The notes: generated by a model from the sequence alone, not told the origin. A DNA stretch of 64,000 nucleotides from Bdellovibrio sp. 22V (GCF_030169785.1 NZ_CP125854.1:3534001-3598000), one strand, 5' to 3'; positions 18,152 through 60,634 are shown, counted from the stretch's first letter. Translations and numbers: made by a program.

Positions 18152-19180
18152 TTGATCGTTTACCTGATTCGCCGATTGTTATTGATGATCCCGACATTTT
18201 TCGGGATCACAGTTGTCACCTTTGTGTTGATTAACTTAGCTCCGGGAAGCCCTATCGAGCAGAAGCTGCAAGCAATCCGTTTCGGATCTGCAGGTGGCGG
18301 AGGCGGCGGTGGCGGCGTTAACACCCGCGGCGACACTTCCGTAAACGAAGAAGTTATCGAGGCTTTGAAGAAACAATATGGTTTCGATAAGCCTCTTCAT
18401 GAGCGTTACATCATTTGGGTTAAGAACTTGGCCCGCTTGGATTTTGGTGAGAGCTTTACTTATCAAGAGCCAGTGATTGACGTTATTAAAAGTAAGTTCC
18501 CTGTTTCTTTGCAGTTCGGTATCGCATCTTTGATCCTGACTTATATTGTTTGTATCCCGCTCGGGGTGCGTAAGGCCATTAAAGCGGGGGCCTCTTTTGA
18601 CCGCTTTACGACCATTCTTCTCAATTTAACTTATTCTATCCCGCCGCTCGTTTTGGGTATCTTCTTGATCGTTGTGTTTGCGGGTAAATTGAATATGTTC
18701 CCAATCGGCGGAATTCAGTCAGATGACTATGAGTCTTTGACTTCGATGGGTAAACTCTGGGACCGCATTCACCATTTCGTTCTTCCTTTGATCTGTTACA
18801 TGATCGGTGGTTTCACAGAGCTTTCAGTTCTTATGCGTAACTCGATGTTGGACGTTGTAAAGTCTGACTTCGTTCGTACAGCGCGCGCTAAAGGTCTTTC
18901 TGAAAATGTTGTGATCTTTAAGCATGCTCTTCGTAATGCTTTGATTCCTATCGCGACAGGCTTGGGTGGGTTCTTCGGAGCCTTCCTTGCGGGTTCCTTG
19001 ATTATCGAACAGATGTTCAATCTCGATGGTATCGGTTTGTTGGGATATCAATCCGTTCTTTCTCGTGACTATAACGTCATCATGGGATTGACCTTCATTT
19101 CTTCATTGCTGTTGATGTTCGGTCGCGTATTCAGTGACATCATCTACGTGCTTATTGACCCAAGGATTGACTTCAAATGA
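18152..19180 (+). CDS. YejB-like peptide ABC transporter permease
   Basis: 342 residues starting with TTG at 18152 (MIVYLIRRLLLMIPTFFGI). Six helices are expected. After the first helix the YejB-type extension APGSPIEQKLQAIRFGSAGG continues into a run of eight Gly before VNTRGDTSVNEEVIEALKKQYGFDKP; the Gly run is coded by GGN repeats prone to slippage. The EAA loop is seen in FVRTARAKGLSENVVIFKHALRNALIP (about 240), where the ATPase docks. The ending VLIDPRIDFK is typical of YejB. It follows the binding protein by 52 bases and overlaps the next permease by four bases (ATGA). Confidence 0.9.
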   Translation: MIVYLIRRLLLMIPTFFGITVVTFVLINLAPGSPIEQKLQAIRFGSAGGGGGGGGVNTRGDTSVNEEVIEALKKQYGFDKPLHERYIIWVKNLARLDFGESFTYQEPVIDVIKSKFPVSLQFGIASLILTYIVCIPLGVRKAIKAGASFDRFTTILLNLTYSIPPLVLGIFLIVVFAGKLNMFPIGGIQSDDYESLTSMGKLWDRIHHFVLPLICYMIGGFTELSVLMRNSMLDVVKSDFVRTARAKGLSENVVIFKHALRNALIPIATGLGGFFGAFLAGSLIIEQMFNLDGIGLLGYQSVLSRDYNVIMGLTFISSLLLMFGRVFSDIIYVLIDPRIDFK

Positions 19181-20205
19181 TGGATCCAATTCAAAAATAT
19201 CTTATTAAGAATGAGCTTACGCTTAAACGCTATAAGCGCTTTAAGCGCGACCGCGTAGCTGTGATCTCTGTTTGGGTCCTTCTTACGATGTTCTTCTTCA
19301 GCTTCACTGCGGAGCTTTGGGCGAACAACCATCCTCACGTTGTGAGCTACCAGGGTAAACTTTATTTCCCTCTTTTCGTGGATTACCATCCAACTGATTT
19401 CGGTCGTGACGATATCTATGTCATGGACTATCGCCAGCTTGAAATGAAAGAGGGCGACTGGTCTATATGGCCTCTTATTCAGTGGGACCCTTACGAGAGC
19501 AATAAAAACGTCGACACTTATCCATCTCCTCCAACCAAAGAAAACTGGATCGGAACGGATGAGAGTGGTCGTGACGTTATGACTCGTCTTCTTTATGGTT
19601 TCCGCTATACGATGATCTTTGCTTTGGGCAGTTGGATCGCGACTTACGTCCTCGGCATCACGTTCGGTTCTTTGATGGGTTACTTGGGTGGCAAAACGGA
19701 TCTTATCGGTCAACGTGTTGTTGAGATCGTGGAAAGTACGCCGATCTTGTTCGTATTGATCACGATCATTTCGATCTTTACGCCAAGTTTGCCTCTTTTG
19801 ATTATCTTCTTCGCGTTCTTTAGCTGGACGGGTATTTCTGCCTACATGCGTGCGCAGTTCCTTTCATTGAGAAAGCGCGAGTATGTTGAAGCGGCGAAAG
19901 CGATTGGTGCAGATCACAAGCGTATTATCGGTAAACACATTCTGCCGAATGGTTTGACGCCGATCGTGACATTTGCGCCGTTCTTTATCGCAGGTGGTGT
20001 AAATACATTGTCGTTCTTGGATTACTTGGGACTAGGTCTTGTTCCGCCAACACCAAGCTGGGGTGAATTGATGGCCCAAGCTCAAAAGTGGTTCACGATC
20101 GCTGAATGGCTCGTATGGGGCCCAATGGTAGCCATCGTCGTAACATTGACCGTCTTAATCAACATCGGCCTAGCAGTCCGCGACGCCTTCGACGCAAAAA
20201 TGTAA
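19177..20205 (+). CDS. YejE-like peptide ABC transporter permease
   Basis: 342 residues. Helix 1 spans about 28-48. The long periplasmic insert (YQGKLYFPLFVDYHPTDFG and later PSPPTKENWIGTDESGRDVM) is the hallmark of YejE/OppC permeases of this branch. The EAA loop is KREYVEAAKAIGADHKRIIGKHILPNGLTP (about 233-262). The ending VRDAFDAKM is followed by TAA, and the next base begins REP-like element A. The ATPases for this pore are not downstream; the only candidates in the window are the two at 36476 and 37444. Confidence 0.9.
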   Translation: MMDPIQKYLIKNELTLKRYKRFKRDRVAVISVWVLLTMFFFSFTAELWANNHPHVVSYQGKLYFPLFVDYHPTDFGRDDIYVMDYRQLEMKEGDWSIWPLIQWDPYESNKNVDTYPSPPTKENWIGTDESGRDVMTRLLYGFRYTMIFALGSWIATYVLGITFGSLMGYLGGKTDLIGQRVVEIVESTPILFVLITIISIFTPSLPLLIIFFAFFSWTGISAYMRAQFLSLRKREYVEAAKAIGADHKRIIGKHILPNGLTPIVTFAPFFIAGGVNTLSFLDYLGLGLVPPTPSWGELMAQAQKWFTIAEWLVWGPMVAIVVTLTVLINIGLAVRDAFDAKM

Positions 20206-20245
20206 GGTACCTGCTTCCCTTTCGTAACGAAAGGTGCACGGTACC
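20206..20245 (+). repeat. REP-like palindromic element A
   Basis: Begins directly after the TAA stop of the YejE-like gene. GGTACC is present at both ends. Inside, CCTTTCG (20218-20224) pairs with CGAAAGG (20228-20234) around a three-base loop TAA, and TGC pairs with GCA further out. The left arm carries the 12-base core GTACCTGCTTCC shared with elements B, C and D. Lies seven bases from the stop of the RAYT gene. Confidence 0.75.
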
Positions 20246-20251
20246 TCCGCT

Positions 20252-20890
20252 CTAATATCGATCCACTTCTAAATGATGAATAAAAGTTCCCGAGCTTCGG
20301 TTAGAAAATCCGAAGCTTGGTCGTTTTAAACTTTTCCGAATCGTTTCTTTGTCATTTTCTAAAGGCTTCGTGTTGAGCCAAGTTAATGTCGAGTGTGGCT
20401 TTTCTTCTAATAAAAGATCTGGCGCAAGCGGAATGACGCCATTTCGCAATCCGAGTCTTATCTGCAGAGTGCTGAACGGATAATCTTCAACCTGGGCGCA
20501 AATTTTTGCTTCCACAGGATTTCGATATACATATTTATAGACGTGTTCCAAGTGAAGGTCTTTGGTAATAACAGATCTAAAGTAACGAGATCCGTAGGTT
20601 TGATTTATTCTTCCGGAGCTTCTGGATATGACTCGAGAAGTTTCCCGCATGAAATAGTTCATCGCTTCTTGCATATTGTTTTCGGGAAACCGCGCAATCA
20701 AGTGGAAGTGGTTACTCATCAGAACGAACGCATGGATTTCCACTTTATAGGCTTGATGAATGAAGTAGAGATAGTTCGACATAATCTCCCAGACTTCATG
20801 GATGGGAAGATGGAACCATTCTTTATTGTGTGAGCGTGCTGAAAGGTGATACGGAAATTCGGCTGTGTAGATTTGTTTTTGTCTTGGCAT
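20252..20890 (-). CDS. REP-associated tyrosine transposase (Y1_Tnp superfamily)
   Basis: 212 residues from the ATG at 20890 (MPRQKQIYTAEFPYHLSARS, the common start of this family); a TTG five codons upstream is less likely. The HUH motif is SNHFHLI (about residue 61-67), with two His for metal binding. Tyr in the helix HVYKYVYRNPVEA (about 120) is the expected nucleophile. RAYTs are single-copy, domesticated relatives of IS200/IS605 transposases that act on REP palindromes through a short head sequence. This copy sits between two REP-like elements in inverted orientation (A and B), which supports the assignment. No insertion-sequence ends or target duplication are visible beyond those elements. 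Confidence 0.88.
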   Translation of the reverse strand: MPRQKQIYTAEFPYHLSARSHNKEWFHLPIHEVWEIMSNYLYFIHQAYKVEIHAFVLMSNHFHLIARFPENNMQEAMNYFMRETSRVISRSSGRINQTYGSRYFRSVITKDLHLEHVYKYVYRNPVEAKICAQVEDYPFSTLQIRLGLRNGVIPLAPDLLLEEKPHSTLTWLNTKPLENDKETIRKSLKRPSFGFSNRSSGTFIHHLEVDRY

Positions 20891-20908
20891 ATTGGATACG
20901 GACAAAGC

Positions 20909-20937
20909 AAAAAGGCTCCCTCAATGGGAGCCTTTTT
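20909..20937. terminator. Strong bidirectional terminator downstream of speA
   Basis: AAAAAGGCTCCC and GGGAGCCTTTTT make a perfect 12-pair stem with a five-base loop and T-runs on both strands. It lies between REP-like element B and the RAYT start, so it ends speA transcription and insulates the RAYT gene. Confidence 0.85.
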
Positions 20938-20965
20938 ATAAGTATATGGTATCCGATTTGACACT

Positions 20966-20997
20966 GTACCTTCCGTGACTGATCGGAAGCAGGTACC
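20966..20997 (-). repeat. REP-like palindromic element B
   Basis: On the minus strand it starts with the last base of the TAG stop codon of speA and reads GTACCTGCTTCC, then a loop, then GGAAGGTAC. GTACCTTCCG (20966-20975) pairs with CGGAA-GCA-GGTAC (20984-20996) with a three-base bulge. Same core as element A, opposite orientation, on the other side of the RAYT gene. Confidence 0.75.
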
Positions 20998-22901
20998 TAT
21001 TCGGCTTCTTCGAGGTAGGTGTAGCCTGAGAGGCCTTCCTCGTAGTGCTTGATCAGAAGTTTTGCTTCTTGTTTTGTGATCGAGCCTTTTTGGATGCTTT
21101 CTTCTGTTGCCTGACGAACATTGTCTACCATTTCCGAGCGGCCGTACTGAACGTAAGAAAGAACTTCCGTCACTGTATCGCCTGGAACGTAATGGTCGAT
21201 GGTGTAACCGACGCCGTTCAAAGAGATGTGAACTGCATCTGTATCTCCGAAAAGATTGTGCAGGTCGCCAAGGATCTCTTGGTAGGCACCCGTCAAGAAT
21301 ACGCCAAGGTAGTACTGTTGACCGTCTGTGAATTGATGCAAGCGGACCGTTTCTTTAGGCTCTCCTGATGCCGTGTCGATGAACTTTTCGATCACGCCGT
21401 CAGAATCACAAGTCAAATCCGCCAATGTGGCTTCACGTACGGGCTCTTCACCCAAGCGGTGAATTGGGATCACTGGGAACAATTGTCCCACTGCCCATGA
21501 ATCCGGTACGGATTGGAATACAGAGAAGTTCGAGAAATAAGTGTCGCAAAGCTCTTTAGAAAGGGCTGTCACGATGTCTTCGCAGTCCGGAGTGGCCCGA
21601 GCCAATTTCACCATCTTCGTAGCGATGGCGAAGTACATGCTTTCACACCAAGCGCGTTGTTCAAGACTCAAAACGCCGTAAGTGAAAAGCTGAAGAGTCT
21701 CTTGTTTCGCTTGCTCGAGGTCATTGAAGCACTCGTTGATATTGTCTTTGTTCACCTTCTCGTAAATGTACTGCATGTCTTGCATGATCGAGTGATCAGT
21801 CTTTAAAGCAGGACGAGGAGGTTCGTGACGATGAAGGTCGTTAATACCCATCACGTTGAAGACAAGAACAGAGTGATGCGCCACCAAGAAGCGGCCTGAC
21901 TCTGTCACGATGTCTGGATGAGGAACGCCTTTTTCGTCGCAAAGAGTTTGCAAAACAGACACGATGTCGTTCGCGTACTCTTGTTCAGAATAGTTTACGG
22001 AACTGTCAGAGTGGCCAGAACCATCGTAGTCAACGCCAAGACCACCGCCGACGTCGATGTACTTCAAGCCCGCGCCCATTTTCACAAGCTCTGTATAGAA
22101 GCGTGCGCCTTCTTTCAAAGAAGACTTGATGGACTGAATTTGTGGAACTTGCGAGCCAATGTGGTAGTGAAGAAGCTCAAGGCATTCAAGCATGCCTTCT
22201 TTTTTCAAGTACTCAACGCCCTCAACGATTTCCGTCGAAGTTAGACCGAATTTAGAGCGAGCTCCTGAAGAGTCCACCCACTTGCCGGCACCTTGAGTGT
22301 TTAATTTTGCCCGGAAACCGATCTTAGGACGCGCGTTGAATTTTTTTGCGCAGTCCACGATCATTTTTAATTCTTCTTTACGATCGACAACGATGATCGT
22401 GTTTCTTCCCAATTTTTGAGAAAGAATCGCCGTCTCGATGTATTCGGAGTCTTTGAAGCCGTTGCAAATGATGAGCGCATTTTCCGTGTTCATCAAAGCA
22501 AGAACAACAAGAAGCTCAGGTTTAGAACCCGCCTCAAGACCCATGGAGTAACCACGACCGTATTTCACCAACTCTTGAACGAGATGACGTTGTTGATTCA
22601 CCTTAATAGGGTAAACGCCACGGTAAGAACCTTTGTAGCCATGATCCGCGAAAGCTTTTTGGAAACAACCGTTCAAAAGCTCTACACGAGATTTAATAAT
22701 TTCAGGAAAGCGAATCATGATAGGAACGCGAATACCACGGTCCAAAAGATCTTGGGTCAATTCAAACAAATCCACTGTGGGACCGTTTGCGCCCATAGGA
22801 GTCACAGCAACGTTGCCGGCTCCGTTGATTCTGAAATAACCGTTGCCCCAGTTGTTAATCCCATAAAGCTCCGCGCTTTTTTCAGGACTCCAATTAGACA
22901 T
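20997..22901 (-). CDS. speA: Biosynthetic arginine decarboxylase
   Basis: 634 residues, close to the E. coli enzyme. PLP-binding Lys lies in GVYPIKVNQQRH (about residue 98). Other conserved blocks are GLEAGSKPELL, GFRAKLN, LLHYHIGSQ, YIDVGGGLGVDYDG and the ending GLSGYTYLEE. Converts arginine to agmatine, the first step of putrescine and spermidine synthesis through agmatinase; a possible agmatinase is at 15273. The TAG stop is joined to REP-like element B, and the terminator follows 60 bases on. The start ATG has an AAAGAG-type site. Confidence 0.96.
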   Translation of the reverse strand: MSNWSPEKSAELYGINNWGNGYFRINGAGNVAVTPMGANGPTVDLFELTQDLLDRGIRVPIMIRFPEIIKSRVELLNGCFQKAFADHGYKGSYRGVYPIKVNQQRHLVQELVKYGRGYSMGLEAGSKPELLVVLALMNTENALIICNGFKDSEYIETAILSQKLGRNTIIVVDRKEELKMIVDCAKKFNARPKIGFRAKLNTQGAGKWVDSSGARSKFGLTSTEIVEGVEYLKKEGMLECLELLHYHIGSQVPQIQSIKSSLKEGARFYTELVKMGAGLKYIDVGGGLGVDYDGSGHSDSSVNYSEQEYANDIVSVLQTLCDEKGVPHPDIVTESGRFLVAHHSVLVFNVMGINDLHRHEPPRPALKTDHSIMQDMQYIYEKVNKDNINECFNDLEQAKQETLQLFTYGVLSLEQRAWCESMYFAIATKMVKLARATPDCEDIVTALSKELCDTYFSNFSVFQSVPDSWAVGQLFPVIPIHRLGEEPVREATLADLTCDSDGVIEKFIDTASGEPKETVRLHQFTDGQQYYLGVFLTGAYQEILGDLHNLFGDTDAVHISLNGVGYTIDHYVPGDTVTEVLSYVQYGRSEMVDNVRQATEESIQKGSITKQEAKLLIKHYEEGLSGYTYLEEAE

Positions 22902-41294: not shown

Positions 41295-41321
41295 AGAACA
41301 TAGTTCTTTTTGTGAACAAAG

Positions 41322-41334
41322 GGAAGCAGGTACC
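41322..41334 (-). repeat. REP-like element C (core only)
   Basis: The core GTACCTGCTTCC follows directly after the TAG stop of dnaE2 on the minus strand, sharing its G. The second arm is degenerate: CTTT and AAAG flank TTCACAA, and the outer GGTACC is missing. Confidence 0.65.
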
Positions 41335-44300
41335 TATTGGAGAGGGAGGACTCTTTCGGCACGGATGTTGATAAGTTCTCCGACTTTCTCAATAGTTCCA
41401 TGAACTTCAAGAAGAGAGCGGCCGTAAATAGCCATCCGGTCTTTTTGATAAACGTCGGGATGAATCACGATATTCATGAAACCGAACTCGTCTTCCAGAG
41501 TGATGAAACACATGCCTTTGGCTGTCGGGGGTCTTTGGGTCACCGAAACAAGTCCCGCTAAACGCACCTTACACTTGTTCTTCATCTTGGGGAGATCGGC
41601 AGAATTGAAATAAGGCACGTAACGTTTGGCGACCAGTTCGCTGCTTTTGCTTTTCAAGTAAGAGCGCAAAACTGACAGAGGATGTGAATCCACCGAGAAA
41701 CCTTTGCTGTCATATTCGCGGCGCAAGCGATCCCAGTTGGATTCAAACGGCAGATGCTCCGGTTCGTCGTCTTGATCTTCTAAGCTGAATTGTTCTTTCG
41801 GATGTCCCCAGAGGAAACTTTCCTGATCCAGGCTTAGACTTTCCAAATGCCAAATCAGCTCGCGCACATTGGTGTTAAAACATGACAAAGCTCCCGCGCC
41901 GGCGATTTTGACCAAAGCGGCTCGTGGTAACTGAGTCCGGCGGATGAAATCGGCAAGATCTTTGAATTCGCCGTCCTGTCTGCGCGACTCTTCGATACGT
42001 CTTAACAAAACTTCAGGCACCCCGTACAGAGAGCGCATTCCCACACGCAAAGCATGACCTACTAAATTTGTTTCTAAAGTATAATCGTAATCAGAGTGTT
42101 GAATGCAAAGAGGACGAACCTCCACACCATTGCGCTGAGCCTCGGCGATCAAAGTGCGAGGCGCATAAAAACCCATGGGCTGACTGTTCAGCAAACCACA
42201 GGCAAAAACGTCGGGATAATGATGTTTTATATAGCAACTGGCGTAAGTGAGAATGGCAAAGCTCGCCGCATGACTTTCCGGAAAACCGTAGTTCGCGAAA
42301 CCTTCGATGGTTTTATAAATCTGTTCGCCATACTCAGGCGTGATTTCATATTTGGCAAATCCCGCAAGAATGCGTTGTTTGATGCCTTCCATAGTGGAAC
42401 GTTTGCGCCAAGCCGAAGACATAATTCTTCTCAGCTCATCGGCTTCTCCCGGAGTGAAGTCCGCAACTTCAATAACGATCTTCATAACCTGTTCTTGAAA
42501 GATAGGTACGCCGAAAGTTTTTTCCAGAATAGGTTTCAGGCGGTCATGCGCATAATGCGCTTTTTCCAAACCCTGGCGTCGACGTAGGTAAGGATGCACC
42601 ATGCCCCCTTGCAAGGGACCTGGGCGTACAAGAGCCACTTCGATCACCAAGTCATAAAAATCTTTGGGCTTCATTCGTGGCAACGTTTGCATTTGCGCGC
42701 GCGATTCAATTTGGAAAACTCCAACAGTATCCGCGCGACCAATCATTTCATAAGTGGGTTGGTCGTTAGCCGGAATGGTATGCAATTCCAGAGGACGGTT
42801 TTTATGAGTCTTCAAAAGATCGAAACACTTTTTCAAACACGTGAGCATTCCCAAACTTAAAACGTCAATCTTCATGAGCTTGAGTGTTGCCACATCGTCT
42901 TTATTCCACTGAATGACATAGCGGTCATTCATCGTAGCTTTTTCCACGGGAACCATTTCTGTAATAGGGTCTTGCGTGATAAGAAATCCGCCCGTATGAA
43001 TTCCAAGATGGCGTGGAAACCCATGCAGCTGTTGAGCCATAGCTAGAAATAATTTCCACTCATGGGGAGCTAAACCAAATTTCTGTCCCACTTCCGGTTC
43101 AAGCAGACGGCTCATTCCGTCCCGGCCCATAAATTTAATCATTTCGTTGATCTTGGAAAGAGGAATACCAAAAACTTTGGCGGTTTCACGAATAGCCATG
43201 CGCGAGCGATAACGAATGACAGTACAAACCATGGCGGCGTGCCGTTCATTGTATTTTTCGTAAATATGCTGAATGACTTCTTCGCGACGGTTGTGTTCGA
43301 AGTCGATGTCAATATCCGGAGGCTCCCGGCGTTCGCGTGAGATAAAGCGCTCAAAGAGTAAATCAATCTCGTTCGGATTCACCGACGTCAAGCCAATACA
43401 AAAACACACGACAGAGTTCGCCGCGGAACCTCGGCCTTGATGAAGAATGTCTTTTTCCGTCGCGAAATCGCAAATTTCCTTCAGAGTTAAAAAATAATCC
43501 TCATACTCAAGCTCTTTAATAAGAGCGAGTTCGTAATCAATCATCTTGCTGACTTTTTCAGGAATGCCAGAGGGGAATCTTTTCTTTGCGCCCTCCCAAG
43601 CCAGATTGCGCAGATGTTCCGAGGGAGTGAGTCCTTGCGGAAGTTGTGAGTGCGGATAGCGATAACGAATTTCATCCAAAGAGAACTTCACTCGTGCGGC
43701 GATCTCCACAGTTTTTTCCACAAGATCCAGGCGGTCTTGCCAAAGAAAGGAAAGATCTTCGAGGCTTTTCAAACAGCGCTCGGCATTTTGAATCAGTTTG
43801 TTTTTCGCCTCTTTCAAAGTGGTGTGGTGCAAAATGCAAATGAGCACATCGAAAAGATATTTGCGCTCCGGATGATGCATAAAAGGTCGTTGTGTGACAA
43901 AAAGACGGGCTTGATATTTTTCTTCCAAGGCAAAAGCACTTCGGCAATGTTCGTGCGATTCCCAGGTCAAATCTCTCCAAACGGGAAGATAAAGACGGTC
44001 GTCGAAAATTTTTTCCAGGCGTTCATAGCGTTCGTCAGTCCAAGGCGGCAAAGCCAAACACAAAAGACCTTGATTGTATTTTTCAACTTGCTCCAGAGTG
44101 AGTTTGGAAAAGCCTTTGGCTGCTTGTCGTTTTCCTAAAGTTAGAAGTTCGCAAAGATGTGAATAACCCTGCTTGTTTATAGGAATCAACGTGATGGAGG
44201 TTTCATCCGTCAACGTCAGTTCGGAACCAATGAGATAATGAAAACCTTCTTTGGCTTTCTTTGAAGCCTTAAAAAGGGACGGCGACTGCATCGTTTGAAA

Positions 44301-44552
44301 ACCGCGCACGACGCCGTAAAGACCGTTCAGGTCGCAGACGCCGATGCCGTCATAGCCGTGAACAATGGCTTCCGTGACCATCTCTTCGGGATGGGAAGCT
44401 CCCTGCAAAAAAGAAAAATTCGTGCGGGCCATGAGCTCGACGAAACCTCGCGCTCGCACCGCAGGTACGGACGAGTTTTTTTGCGTGGTCTGCATGCCCG
44501 ACATGCGCGAAGGCAGATTTATTTTTTTCTGACCGTTAATCGAAATACCCAT
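41334..44552 (-). CDS. dnaE2: Error-prone DNA polymerase III alpha (DnaE2/ImuC)
   Basis: 1072 residues, the DnaE2 size (DnaE1 is about 1160). The PHP domain opens with FVELMARTNFSFLQGASHPEEMV. Polymerase acids are in EPPDIDIDFEHNRREEV (about 405), and GRGSAANS, RPGPLQGGMVHPYLRRRQG, GFANYGFPESHAASFA and the OB-fold end VRLAGLVSVTQRP are all present. DnaE2 is the catalytic part of the ImuA-ImuB-DnaE2 mutasome that copies past lesions. Its start overlaps imuB by 17 bases. The stop TAG (41334-41336) is joined to REP-like element C. Confidence 0.95.
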   Translation of the reverse strand: MGISINGQKKINLPSRMSGMQTTQKNSSVPAVRARGFVELMARTNFSFLQGASHPEEMVTEAIVHGYDGIGVCDLNGLYGVVRGFQTMQSPSLFKASKKAKEGFHYLIGSELTLTDETSITLIPINKQGYSHLCELLTLGKRQAAKGFSKLTLEQVEKYNQGLLCLALPPWTDERYERLEKIFDDRLYLPVWRDLTWESHEHCRSAFALEEKYQARLFVTQRPFMHHPERKYLFDVLICILHHTTLKEAKNKLIQNAERCLKSLEDLSFLWQDRLDLVEKTVEIAARVKFSLDEIRYRYPHSQLPQGLTPSEHLRNLAWEGAKKRFPSGIPEKVSKMIDYELALIKELEYEDYFLTLKEICDFATEKDILHQGRGSAANSVVCFCIGLTSVNPNEIDLLFERFISRERREPPDIDIDFEHNRREEVIQHIYEKYNERHAAMVCTVIRYRSRMAIRETAKVFGIPLSKINEMIKFMGRDGMSRLLEPEVGQKFGLAPHEWKLFLAMAQQLHGFPRHLGIHTGGFLITQDPITEMVPVEKATMNDRYVIQWNKDDVATLKLMKIDVLSLGMLTCLKKCFDLLKTHKNRPLELHTIPANDQPTYEMIGRADTVGVFQIESRAQMQTLPRMKPKDFYDLVIEVALVRPGPLQGGMVHPYLRRRQGLEKAHYAHDRLKPILEKTFGVPIFQEQVMKIVIEVADFTPGEADELRRIMSSAWRKRSTMEGIKQRILAGFAKYEITPEYGEQIYKTIEGFANYGFPESHAASFAILTYASCYIKHHYPDVFACGLLNSQPMGFYAPRTLIAEAQRNGVEVRPLCIQHSDYDYTLETNLVGHALRVGMRSLYGVPEVLLRRIEESRRQDGEFKDLADFIRRTQLPRAALVKIAGAGALSCFNTNVRELIWHLESLSLDQESFLWGHPKEQFSLEDQDDEPEHLPFESNWDRLRREYDSKGFSVDSHPLSVLRSYLKSKSSELVAKRYVPYFNSADLPKMKNKCKVRLAGLVSVTQRPPTAKGMCFITLEDEFGFMNIVIHPDVYQKDRMAIYGRSLLEVHGTIEKVGELINIRAERVLPLQ

Positions 44553-58027: not shown

Positions 58028-58055
58028 AAAAGGCCGACCGTGCAGTCAGCCTTTT
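58028..58055. terminator. Terminator after the repeat protein gene
   Basis: AAAAGGC (58028-58034) pairs with GCCTTTT (58049-58055), with GAC/GTC pairing inside after a mismatch. T-rich on the plus strand; it also faces the converging gene. Confidence 0.55.
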
Positions 58056-58076: not shown

Positions 58077-58116
58077 GGTACCTGGTACCTTTTTCATACG
58101 AAAGGAAGCAGGTACC
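58077..58116 (-). repeat. REP-like element D
   Basis: On the minus strand, after the TAG stop of the 725-residue gene it reads GTACCTGCTTCC, the stem CCTTTCG-TATG-AAA-AAGG, then GGTACC twice. The last base of the TAG is the first G of GGTACC. The arrangement matches element A. Confidence 0.75.
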
Positions 58117-60293
58117 TATTGGTTCATCACTGAAACAGCAGGCATTGGACATTGCAAAGCTTTGAGCTTTTGGCTCACGAGGTTTGCATCAGCTTGATAA
58201 CCTTTTCTGATCAATGTGTCTTTCGCTTGGTTCACGACAGATTTCACGTAAGTCGTGCCGTTTAATTGCGTCATGCCACGGCAAGCGTTAACGACAGAAG
58301 AATCCATTTTCACGTCCAACACAGGGTCGATCATGTCACAGAAGAACTGGACAGCACCCAAGTGATCGATAGAAGCAGACCAATCCAACCAAGCGGACTC
58401 AAGCTGTTGGCAGGCGATTTCGTGTTCGCGAGATCCCATCTCTAGGTTTTTCAAATTGAAGTTACCAAGAGCTTGAGAAATCTTTAGGCTGTCCGTTTGA
58501 ACTTTTGGATCTGTGTAAGGCATACCGCTGATCGTGTATTTTGTCGCTTTGCCACGACCCGCCTCCGTCAAGCTGTAAGAGCCGTTGCGAAGAGCGCGCA
58601 TACCCGTGATAAATGCAGAGATAGCTTGGTCATGCATTTTCTTCGTATGATCAATCCAAGCAAGCACTGGCGGATTGCCGAAGCCCCAAGCGCTGCGTGA
58701 ACCGAAAAGACCGGCTTTCAAATTCACCATACGTTGCGCAAGTTCAGAGCGATCGATGATCGAGTTGTCTTTAGAAAGTTCTTGCATCGCTTTTTCAACA
58801 CGTTTGATCGTTACTTTTTCAACTTCAATACGAGCGTATTGAACTTTCCATTGACGGTACTCTGCACTTCTTGAAAGTTCGCTTTCAAGATCCGCTTTTC
58901 CTTTATTAACAACAGAGCTTGTCATTGCAATAGCCTGACGAACGCCCGACAACCATGAACGACCCGCGTTTGCACAAGATTTAAGAGCGGATTCGTCTTC
59001 AGTCGCTTTGACAGCCAAAGAAGCGATCTTCTTCATCGAGTTCACATGCAAAGTGCTCATTGTCACGGCCTGAAGTTTTTGCGCGCGATCACCTTGCGCT
59101 GTTGCTGCCGACAAGTTCAAGAAAGCAGAAGAAGGGAATGTCTTGCCATCTTGCGCCCAGTTCACAAGCTCATTCGACAACATACAAACCATCAAATCGT
59201 CGCTGTTCTGAGCGATTTGCGTTTCAACTGTCAGCAAGTCCGCGCGATCGTTCACCATTTGATTTTCGATAGCGAGAGTCACTTTTGTCGCCGTGTCTTT
59301 ATATTTCAAAAGAGCAGAAAGTTCGCGTGATGGCGTACCGAATTTAGCATTGTAAAGCTCGACATTTTGCTCAAGCTCTTGCGTGATCTTGTCGATCTTT
59401 CCACTTTGAGCCAGTTGCATGAAACGAACTTTCTTAGCCACCTTCGTGAATTGACATGTGTTCTGAAGAACCGCTTTACGGTGTTCAGGGTTTGTCATAT
59501 CCAAAGTATTCTGATCGATCATTTTCGCAATCGCAGAGATCCCGCTTGTTGCAACCGCGCCACCGATAACGAATGGCAATGCCGGAGCTAAAGCCGCATT
59601 CATAGAAACCGCGAAAAGAGCGTAAGGCGCAAGACCGTTAATGACGTCGTTCAACGCCAAAAGCACTTTACCTGTCGACATTGTTTGACGACCGCATTTT
59701 GAATTGAGGAAGTTGTTATTATTAACAATGTCACCCAAGTTTCCAACTGCGGTAAGTGCCGCCGTGATTGTCGGTTCGATTTGCGCCGTATTCACAGAAG
59801 CAGCGTCTTGTGAAGCCATCAAAGTTTGAAGAGCGGAAATACTTTCTTTAATAGTCTTACCATTGTCTTCTAAAGACTTCGCAGACGGAGAACCCGTACA
59901 TTCTGGAGAAGCCTTCACTTCTTTATTTAAAGAATCGATCGCCGCGATTAATTCTGCGTGAGGACGATTGTCAAACAACGGACAGCTATAAGCCTCGGGA
60001 ACTTTCGCCGCATTCATTTTTGCGCCAGAAGTAGACTGAGGACGCGTTGTATTGCGGTTGCTGTTATTATTGCCGGAATTATTATTGTTTCCGGTCTTCC
60101 CTGGCGCCGGAGTTACCGGAGTGGTGGGAAACAAACCTGTATCGTCTTTGTCGTTATCCTCTGGAAAAAGATCGAGAGGGAAAGACGCCGTTCCGGTATT
60201 TGCCGCCATCGCCACATGAGGGACGTGGGGCAAAATGAAACTTGCGGAGATGGCAAATGCCATCGCACTTCTCTTTACGTACTTCAGTTTCAT
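58116..60293 (-). CDS. Large exported protein of unknown function
   Basis: 725 residues from the ATG at 60293, which has TGGAG upstream. Signal peptide MKLKYVKRSAMAFAISASFILPHVPHVAMA. A low-complexity Asn/Pro/Ser/Thr stretch follows (about 35-95, TPGKTGNNNNSGNNNSNRN). The rest is mainly alpha-helical (long Ala-rich segments from about 125 to 720), with about nine Cys including a CQ-rich C-terminal region. Hydrophobic segment ALAPALPFVIGGAVATSGI at about 240 may be membrane-associated. No family recognised. The gene ends in a TAG joined to REP-like element D. Confidence 0.65.
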   Translation of the reverse strand: MKLKYVKRSAMAFAISASFILPHVPHVAMAANTGTASFPLDLFPEDNDKDDTGLFPTTPVTPAPGKTGNNNNSGNNNSNRNTTRPQSTSGAKMNAAKVPEAYSCPLFDNRPHAELIAAIDSLNKEVKASPECTGSPSAKSLEDNGKTIKESISALQTLMASQDAASVNTAQIEPTITAALTAVGNLGDIVNNNNFLNSKCGRQTMSTGKVLLALNDVINGLAPYALFAVSMNAALAPALPFVIGGAVATSGISAIAKMIDQNTLDMTNPEHRKAVLQNTCQFTKVAKKVRFMQLAQSGKIDKITQELEQNVELYNAKFGTPSRELSALLKYKDTATKVTLAIENQMVNDRADLLTVETQIAQNSDDLMVCMLSNELVNWAQDGKTFPSSAFLNLSAATAQGDRAQKLQAVTMSTLHVNSMKKIASLAVKATEDESALKSCANAGRSWLSGVRQAIAMTSSVVNKGKADLESELSRSAEYRQWKVQYARIEVEKVTIKRVEKAMQELSKDNSIIDRSELAQRMVNLKAGLFGSRSAWGFGNPPVLAWIDHTKKMHDQAISAFITGMRALRNGSYSLTEAGRGKATKYTISGMPYTDPKVQTDSLKISQALGNFNLKNLEMGSREHEIACQQLESAWLDWSASIDHLGAVQFFCDMIDPVLDVKMDSSVVNACRGMTQLNGTTYVKSVVNQAKDTLIRKGYQADANLVSQKLKALQCPMPAVSVMNQ

Positions 60294-60634
60294 AGAATCT
60301 CCATTGTTTAACTTTTCTCCAAGTAACCATTTACGCGTGTCAATTTGAGGCACTCAAACAATCGCAGCGAAACCTAACTCGCTAGAATCACTGCAATTCA
60401 TCTAAACTCCGCACATAGACCCACTACTTCGCGTGGACCTAAGTGCAAAGACAGTGCTCACCTGACTCGATTTGAAACAGGTACATGGGCCTGTCGCAAA
60501 ATTCCGTCACTTGCGTGGACGGTAGACGCCTTTTGCCCCTTTTCGAAAGATTCTTTTGTTATTTGCTTATTATCTCGAAATTAAAGGGACCTTGTCCGCG
60601 GGGCATGGAACGCTCTTTGAATAGGATCATAGGT
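60294..60634. other. 341-base divergent spacer
   Basis: Lies between the oppositely oriented exported-protein genes and must hold both promoters. Short near-repeats ACTTCGCGTGGAC (60425) and ACTTGCGTGGAC (60511) are visible. No terminator, tRNA or clear small gene was found. Confidence 0.4.

Follow-up and report, generated by a model that had tools for sequence, protein, structure and literature searches.

REP-like repeats joined to stop codons and their RAYT gene in Bdellovibrio sp. 22V

In the genome of Bdellovibrio sp. 22V, a RAYT gene (REP-associated tyrosine transposase, TnpAREP-like) lies between two inverted copies of a short repeat, and each copy abuts the stop codon of the neighboring gene. 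This arrangement raises two questions: whether the repeats are the REP elements of this RAYT, and why they are joined to stop codons. We analyzed a window of 64,000 nucleotides (bases 3534001-3598000 of the single-contig 3.6 Mb genome, labeled G000), the rest of this genome, and 40 related genomes. Gene calls followed a simple longest-ORF rule, under which 5′ ends are uncertain and 3′ ends certain.

A RAYT gene between inverted repeats

The 12-mer GTACCTGCTTCC occurs four times in the window, at the positions and on the strands given in the initial annotation. Each copy abuts the stop codon of the gene named there, as TAA-G-GTACC behind the YejE-like permease gene and as TAG-GTACC behind the genes for SpeA, DnaE2 and a large unknown protein (Table 1). 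For this last host the gene had been identified correctly but its length had not, since the ORF listing gives 745 aa from a GTG start and not 725; searches of Pfam and NCBIfam returned no match for this protein. The names SpeA, DnaE2 and YejE-type permease are backed by Pfam/NCBIfam, and at 89-96% identity the relatives of SpeA come from Bdellovibrio and Bdellovibrionaceae records, B. bacteriovorus strain kdesi among them. Two copies flank the RAYT gene as an inverted pair, as had been noted, and the three hairpins that had been described do fold (z of -5.6 for the copy at 20206, -2.4 at 20996 and -4.1 at 58115), with the copy at 41333 leaving its two ends unpaired. Allowing up to 2 mismatches to the 12-mer, we found 11 matches in the window against 2.9 expected.

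Table 1. Coordinates of the repeats, genes and terminator-like hairpins in the window.
Feature	Position	Strand	Description
YejE-like (oligopeptide/microcin C type) ABC permease gene	19177..20205	+	stop joined to element A
REP element A	20206..20245	+	GGTACCTGCTTCC and hairpin ending GGTACC; abuts TAA of the YejE-like permease gene
RAYT gene	20252..20905	-	HFH motif and YKYVYRNPV region
Terminator-like hairpin AAAAGGCTCCCTCAATGGGAGCCTTTTT	20910..20937		lies 60-90 nt past the speA stop; separate from the REP; T-run; read directly off the sequence
REP element B	20966..20996	-	GTACCTGCTTCC and hairpin ending GGTAC; abuts speA TAG; inverted partner of A
speA (biosynthetic arginine decarboxylase)	20997..22901	-	TAG joined to element B
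REP element C	41300..41333	-	head only, 3′ part degenerate; abuts dnaE2 TAG
dnaE2 (error-prone DNA polymerase)	41334..44552	-	TAG joined to element C
Terminator-like hairpin, then TTTTTT	58036..58051	-	downstream of element D
REP element D	58077..58115	-	GTACCTGCTTCC...GGTACCAGGTACC hairpin; abuts TAG of the 745-aa ORF
745-aa ORF	58116..60353	-	TAG joined to element D

The RAYT gene, with a likely start at the ATG at 20890, encodes a Y1 HUH transposase with the HUH motif and a tyrosine in the YxxNPV region. Its product matches Pfam Y1_Tnp above the cut-off, and the sole match in a PDB sequence search was the solved TnpAREP 4er8 (E 3e-7), in an alignment that spans the HUH and YIYINPV region. 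Against a link between this gene and the repeats, the score with the NCBIfam model for REP-associated transposases (NF047646) was 65.3 bits, under the cut-off of 80 bits.

Across the whole genome there are 7 exact 12-mers in 6 elements (0+1 for the reversed control), and the reversed-pattern control led us to reject a chance origin of the copies. The initial annotation had proposed this search, and each of the six elements with the exact head begins 0-4 nt after a stop. At 74145 the sixth forms a palindrome of 38 nt in the gap between convergent genes, 4 nt from one stop and 2 nt from that of the facing gene, and folds with a z of -9.3 (-2.8 for the consensus element). The genome also has about 10 variant heads, GTACCCGCTTCC and GTACCAGCTTCC, five of them at most 3 nt from a stop. 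The sequence TAGGTACC occurs 22 times in the genome contig, as opposed to 131 times for its reversed control; eight of the 22 are at stop codons, and all eight are these elements, their variants or parts of them. As a separate observation, five of the six exact-head elements are found in a stretch of about 120 kb that spans the contig ends (G000:C1:74145 and 3554207-3592115), with C-variant heads scattered elsewhere. We considered local hopping near the RAYT and dropped it, as the copies of a related genome (G018) are spread over contigs.

The repeats are short, palindromic, mostly extragenic, multicopy and inverted around a RAYT gene, as in REP families. When two 12-mers lie less than 200 nt apart they are nearly always inverted (20 of 21 pairs, spacings 26-160), which is the arrangement of a REPIN. 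Covariation in the hairpin was weak, as judged by ungapped alignment columns, and we place no reliance on it. In 90 copies, the three bases before the head read AAG 52 times and TAG 22 times, and the tetranucleotides at this border include AAAG (42), ATAG (15), TTAG (5) and GTAG (1). Members of the GTAG REP superfamily carry GTAG or GTGG at the 5′ foot; with GTAG in a single copy, we do not file the elements as GTAG REPs of Di Nocera et al. (PMC3733652), and this also counts against a RAYT-linked origin. In REP systems that have been tested, the GTAG motif helps to choose a CT cutting site, and its AG is proposed to pair across with the CT (PMC8266576). The constant AG of the border described here would fit such AG-CT pairing.

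Repeats and RAYT genes in related genomes

We counted the 12-mer in the 40 related genomes, with the reversed pattern as control. There are 7-18 copies in each of G000, G001, G003, G008, G018, G019 and G020 (10-18 in the six other than G000) and 0-2 in the other 17 congeners (0-1 for the reversed control). A close RAYT (at least 64% identity) is found only in G000, G008, G018, G019 and G020, and in all five the gene occupies the interval from yejE to speA, with inverted heads on its two sides. It is thus single-copy and vertically kept, and not a multicopy IS, with one close RAYT per genome at the yejE-speA locus of five species and relics elsewhere. In G000 and G019 the gene points away from speA, and in G008, G018 and G020 it points towards speA (L036-L040, L102, L108), from which we conclude that the cassette flipped between its inverted repeats.

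Copies in species without this RAYT had been named as evidence against the link, and they do occur, in G001 and G003. In G003 both flanking heads are kept around a RAYT fragment. G001 has neither the RAYT nor the heads at yejE-speA, yet it holds 17 copies elsewhere, which counts against a RAYT-linked origin; many of these copies are at loci common to G018 and G008. Given the relic with both heads in G003 and the shared loci of G001, we explain the copies in both genomes by loss of the RAYT. Decayed RAYT genes, with heads intact or variant, are present at the yejE-speA site of G003 (L210), G014 (L215; a broken gene with a variant head) and G013 (L208). In G032, which belongs to another family, there are nine exact heads (L008, L024, L032, L066-L069); the interior of these elements differs, and the genome has no close RAYT.

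The pairing of RAYT and repeat extends beyond this clade. Each of the order's 30 best RAYT loci lies between inverted repeats, whose head is GGTRCC-like in nearly all cases, and the head sequence tracks the RAYT tree, in which the five RAYTs with GTACCTGCTTCC form one clade (support 100/99). The genome of Bdellovibrio sp. 22V has a second RAYT (G000:C1:2024710-2025315), about 50% identical to the one in the window and flanked by GGTGCCTGCTTCTTT (L241-L250, L251-L280). There are 23 exact copies of GGTGCCTGCTTCTTT in this genome. It is likewise abundant in further genomes with RAYTs from the clade of the second RAYT; G008, where the second RAYT has a different head, lacks it. The co-occurrence of repeat and gene, the inverted flanking copies in five species and the agreement of head and RAYT tree support the earlier description of the repeats as REP-like elements of this RAYT.

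Stop codons, gene ends and the position of the repeats

To describe the joining to stop codons we pooled counts from several genomes. Among extragenic copies, 31 of 78 start 0-3 nt after a stop; with orthologous sites counted once, 19 of 57 distinct loci are stop-joined. The number of stop-joined copies expected is 1.5 for random non-coding positions at the same loci and 5.7 for positions that follow AAG or TAG, and in 20,000 draws neither null reached the 31 observed. Repeats of the second family are also often stop-joined (13 of 30 within 4 nt), mostly as TAAAAGGTGCC. The coupling is real, common to two families and far from universal. Joining to stops in every case, as first described, holds for the exact copies of this genome but not for the family across genomes. 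A majority of copies away from stops had been given as grounds to abandon the idea; 60-67% are indeed elsewhere, but the coupling is still strongly non-random. To call it unusual was too strong, since REP termini that provide TAG stops, and the clustering of REPs behind genes, have been reported (PMC3733652).

We propose that the elements are very probably a RAYT-linked REP/REPIN family, that is, non-autonomous repeats dispersed by the RAYT, with stop-joining arising from the WAG border and selection. In this mechanism A(A/T)AG together with GTACCTGCTTCC would be the recognized head of a single-stranded hairpin, and the RAYT, an enzyme of the HUH/Y1 type, presumably carries out cutting and joining close to the A(A/T)AG border, which may hold the guide role that GTAG has in enterobacterial REPs. 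A TAG or TAA(A)G stop could double as the (A/T)AG border. Insertion right behind a stop would harm no gene, and insertions at most other positions in a dense genome would be purged. The (A/T)AG at the end of the border and the tolerance of insertions behind a stop would together account for the joined stops.

The enrichment at stops exceeds what positions preceded by WAG predict, so selection or something more specific must be added to the border effect. We favor selection as the probable cause of the remaining excess. It is quite unlikely that the repeats are placed or kept at stops beyond such tolerance, either by a RAYT that prefers stop contexts or by a hairpin that regulates termination or turnover of the host mRNA, a reading suggested by two repeat families that are stop-joined in a third or more of their copies. 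That the RAYT or its relatives actively target stop codons or gene 3′ ends on insertion is very improbable. The roughly five-fold excess over WAG-preceded sites and the occurrence of stop-joining in two RAYT/repeat families of the genus are consistent with such targeting, but selection against other positions yields the same pattern, and just 33-43% of copies are at stops. We also know of no HUH enzyme that targets stop codons or gene 3′ ends.

It had also been suggested that the element supplies the stop codon, in which case insertion would create or move the end of the gene. In each of the 24 congeners SpeA ends at the same codon, whether the element is present or not. The 745-aa protein has the same end in almost all of 17 orthologues, none of which carries the element, with TAA or TAG as the stop, and DnaE2 orthologues end alike with TAA, TAG or TGA. 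At three more stop-joined loci, for which G008 and G020 served as the comparison, the position of the stop is kept, and the empty sites of G020 have TAG at one and TAA at two. As these genes end alike whether or not they carry the element, the C-terminus is not set by it, and for the position of the stop the suggestion is largely refuted by the six genes. The identity of the stop codon is another matter. The speA stop is TAG in six genomes that bear the element and mostly TAA at empty sites, and at L012 the carriers have TAG where the empty relative G020 has TAA. The element may therefore have changed TAA to TAG at some sites, although several relatives have TAG without an element (for speA, G001, G012 and G016). 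The one exception for position is an L,D-transpeptidase-like (LDT) gene of G020, which runs into its element and ends inside it. The termini of GTAG REPs often provide a TAG stop (PMC3733652), which also speaks for supply; even so, we consider it decidedly improbable as an explanation of the pattern.

A hairpin directly behind a stop could instead be the transcription terminator of the joined gene, and the 38-nt palindrome at 74145, which fills most of a convergent gap, has the place of one. Most copies are without a T-run after the hairpin, and downstream of the element both speA and the 745-aa gene carry a hairpin of their own with a T-run (Table 1), which argues against termination as a general role. 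A pattern scan for a G+C-rich stem followed by a T-run called no element of the window; it also missed the obvious hairpin behind speA and so carries little weight. Taken together, a terminator is a highly improbable function for these repeats.

Among the functional readings, we regard as possible but unlikely an RNA element at the 3′ end of the message, in which a hairpin at most 15 nt from the stop is retained for its slowing or modulating effect on translation termination and mRNA decay. The strong enrichment at stops would fit this, as would the speA stop junction GAATAGGTACCTGCTTCC, which is identical in five species with a differing element interior, and in E. coli, REPs at under 16 nt from a stop are reported to lower translation (reported in PMC12306157). 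Against it, most orthologues of the host genes have no element, over half of the copies are not at stops, and element C is unfolded. Conservation is in the head and not in the stem, as recognition by a protein would give, and the presence of an element is not kept between species, save at the RAYT locus and a few loci of close relatives.

Relation to known REP systems

Among the papers searched, we found no description of REPs or RAYTs of Bdellovibrio. The locus resembles the REPtrons of E. coli, Pseudomonas and Stenotrophomonas, in which a Y1/HUH gene is flanked by an inverted short hairpin repeat that recurs extragenically, mostly behind genes, with a head specific to the RAYT clade. It differs from them in its border, A(A/T)AG and not GTAG, in its head, GGTACCTGCTTCC, and in having about 10 copies and not hundreds. 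TIRtrons/TIRYT (Di Nocera 2013, PMC3733652) likewise join a RAYT-like gene to non-GTAG inverted repeats, some of them in moderately abundant dimer families, although their shared TIR motif, GGGGWSAS, differs from the GGTRCC-like head found here. The elements therefore stand closer to RAYT genes with non-GTAG inverted repeats (PMC3733652) than to GTAG REPs. As in REPINs (Bertels and Rainey 2011, PMC3116915), two copies that lie close together are inverted and form a single hairpin, whereas singlets are commoner here and very short palindromes of 38 nt are present. The E. coli REPs within 15 nt of stops (Liang et al. 2015, as reported in PMC12306157) share the hairpin repeat directly behind the stop; for those a translational effect was measured.

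This is an ordinary RAYT/REP system with a domesticated transposase gene, documented in a little-studied group. It adds a clean case of co-diversification of a RAYT and its repeats in Bdellovibrio-type predators and, for one RAYT cassette, provides orthologous sites in the occupied, decayed and empty state. It also puts numbers on how often such repeats fuse to stop codons, and supports a simple cause, border plus selection, for a pattern that resembles functional coupling.
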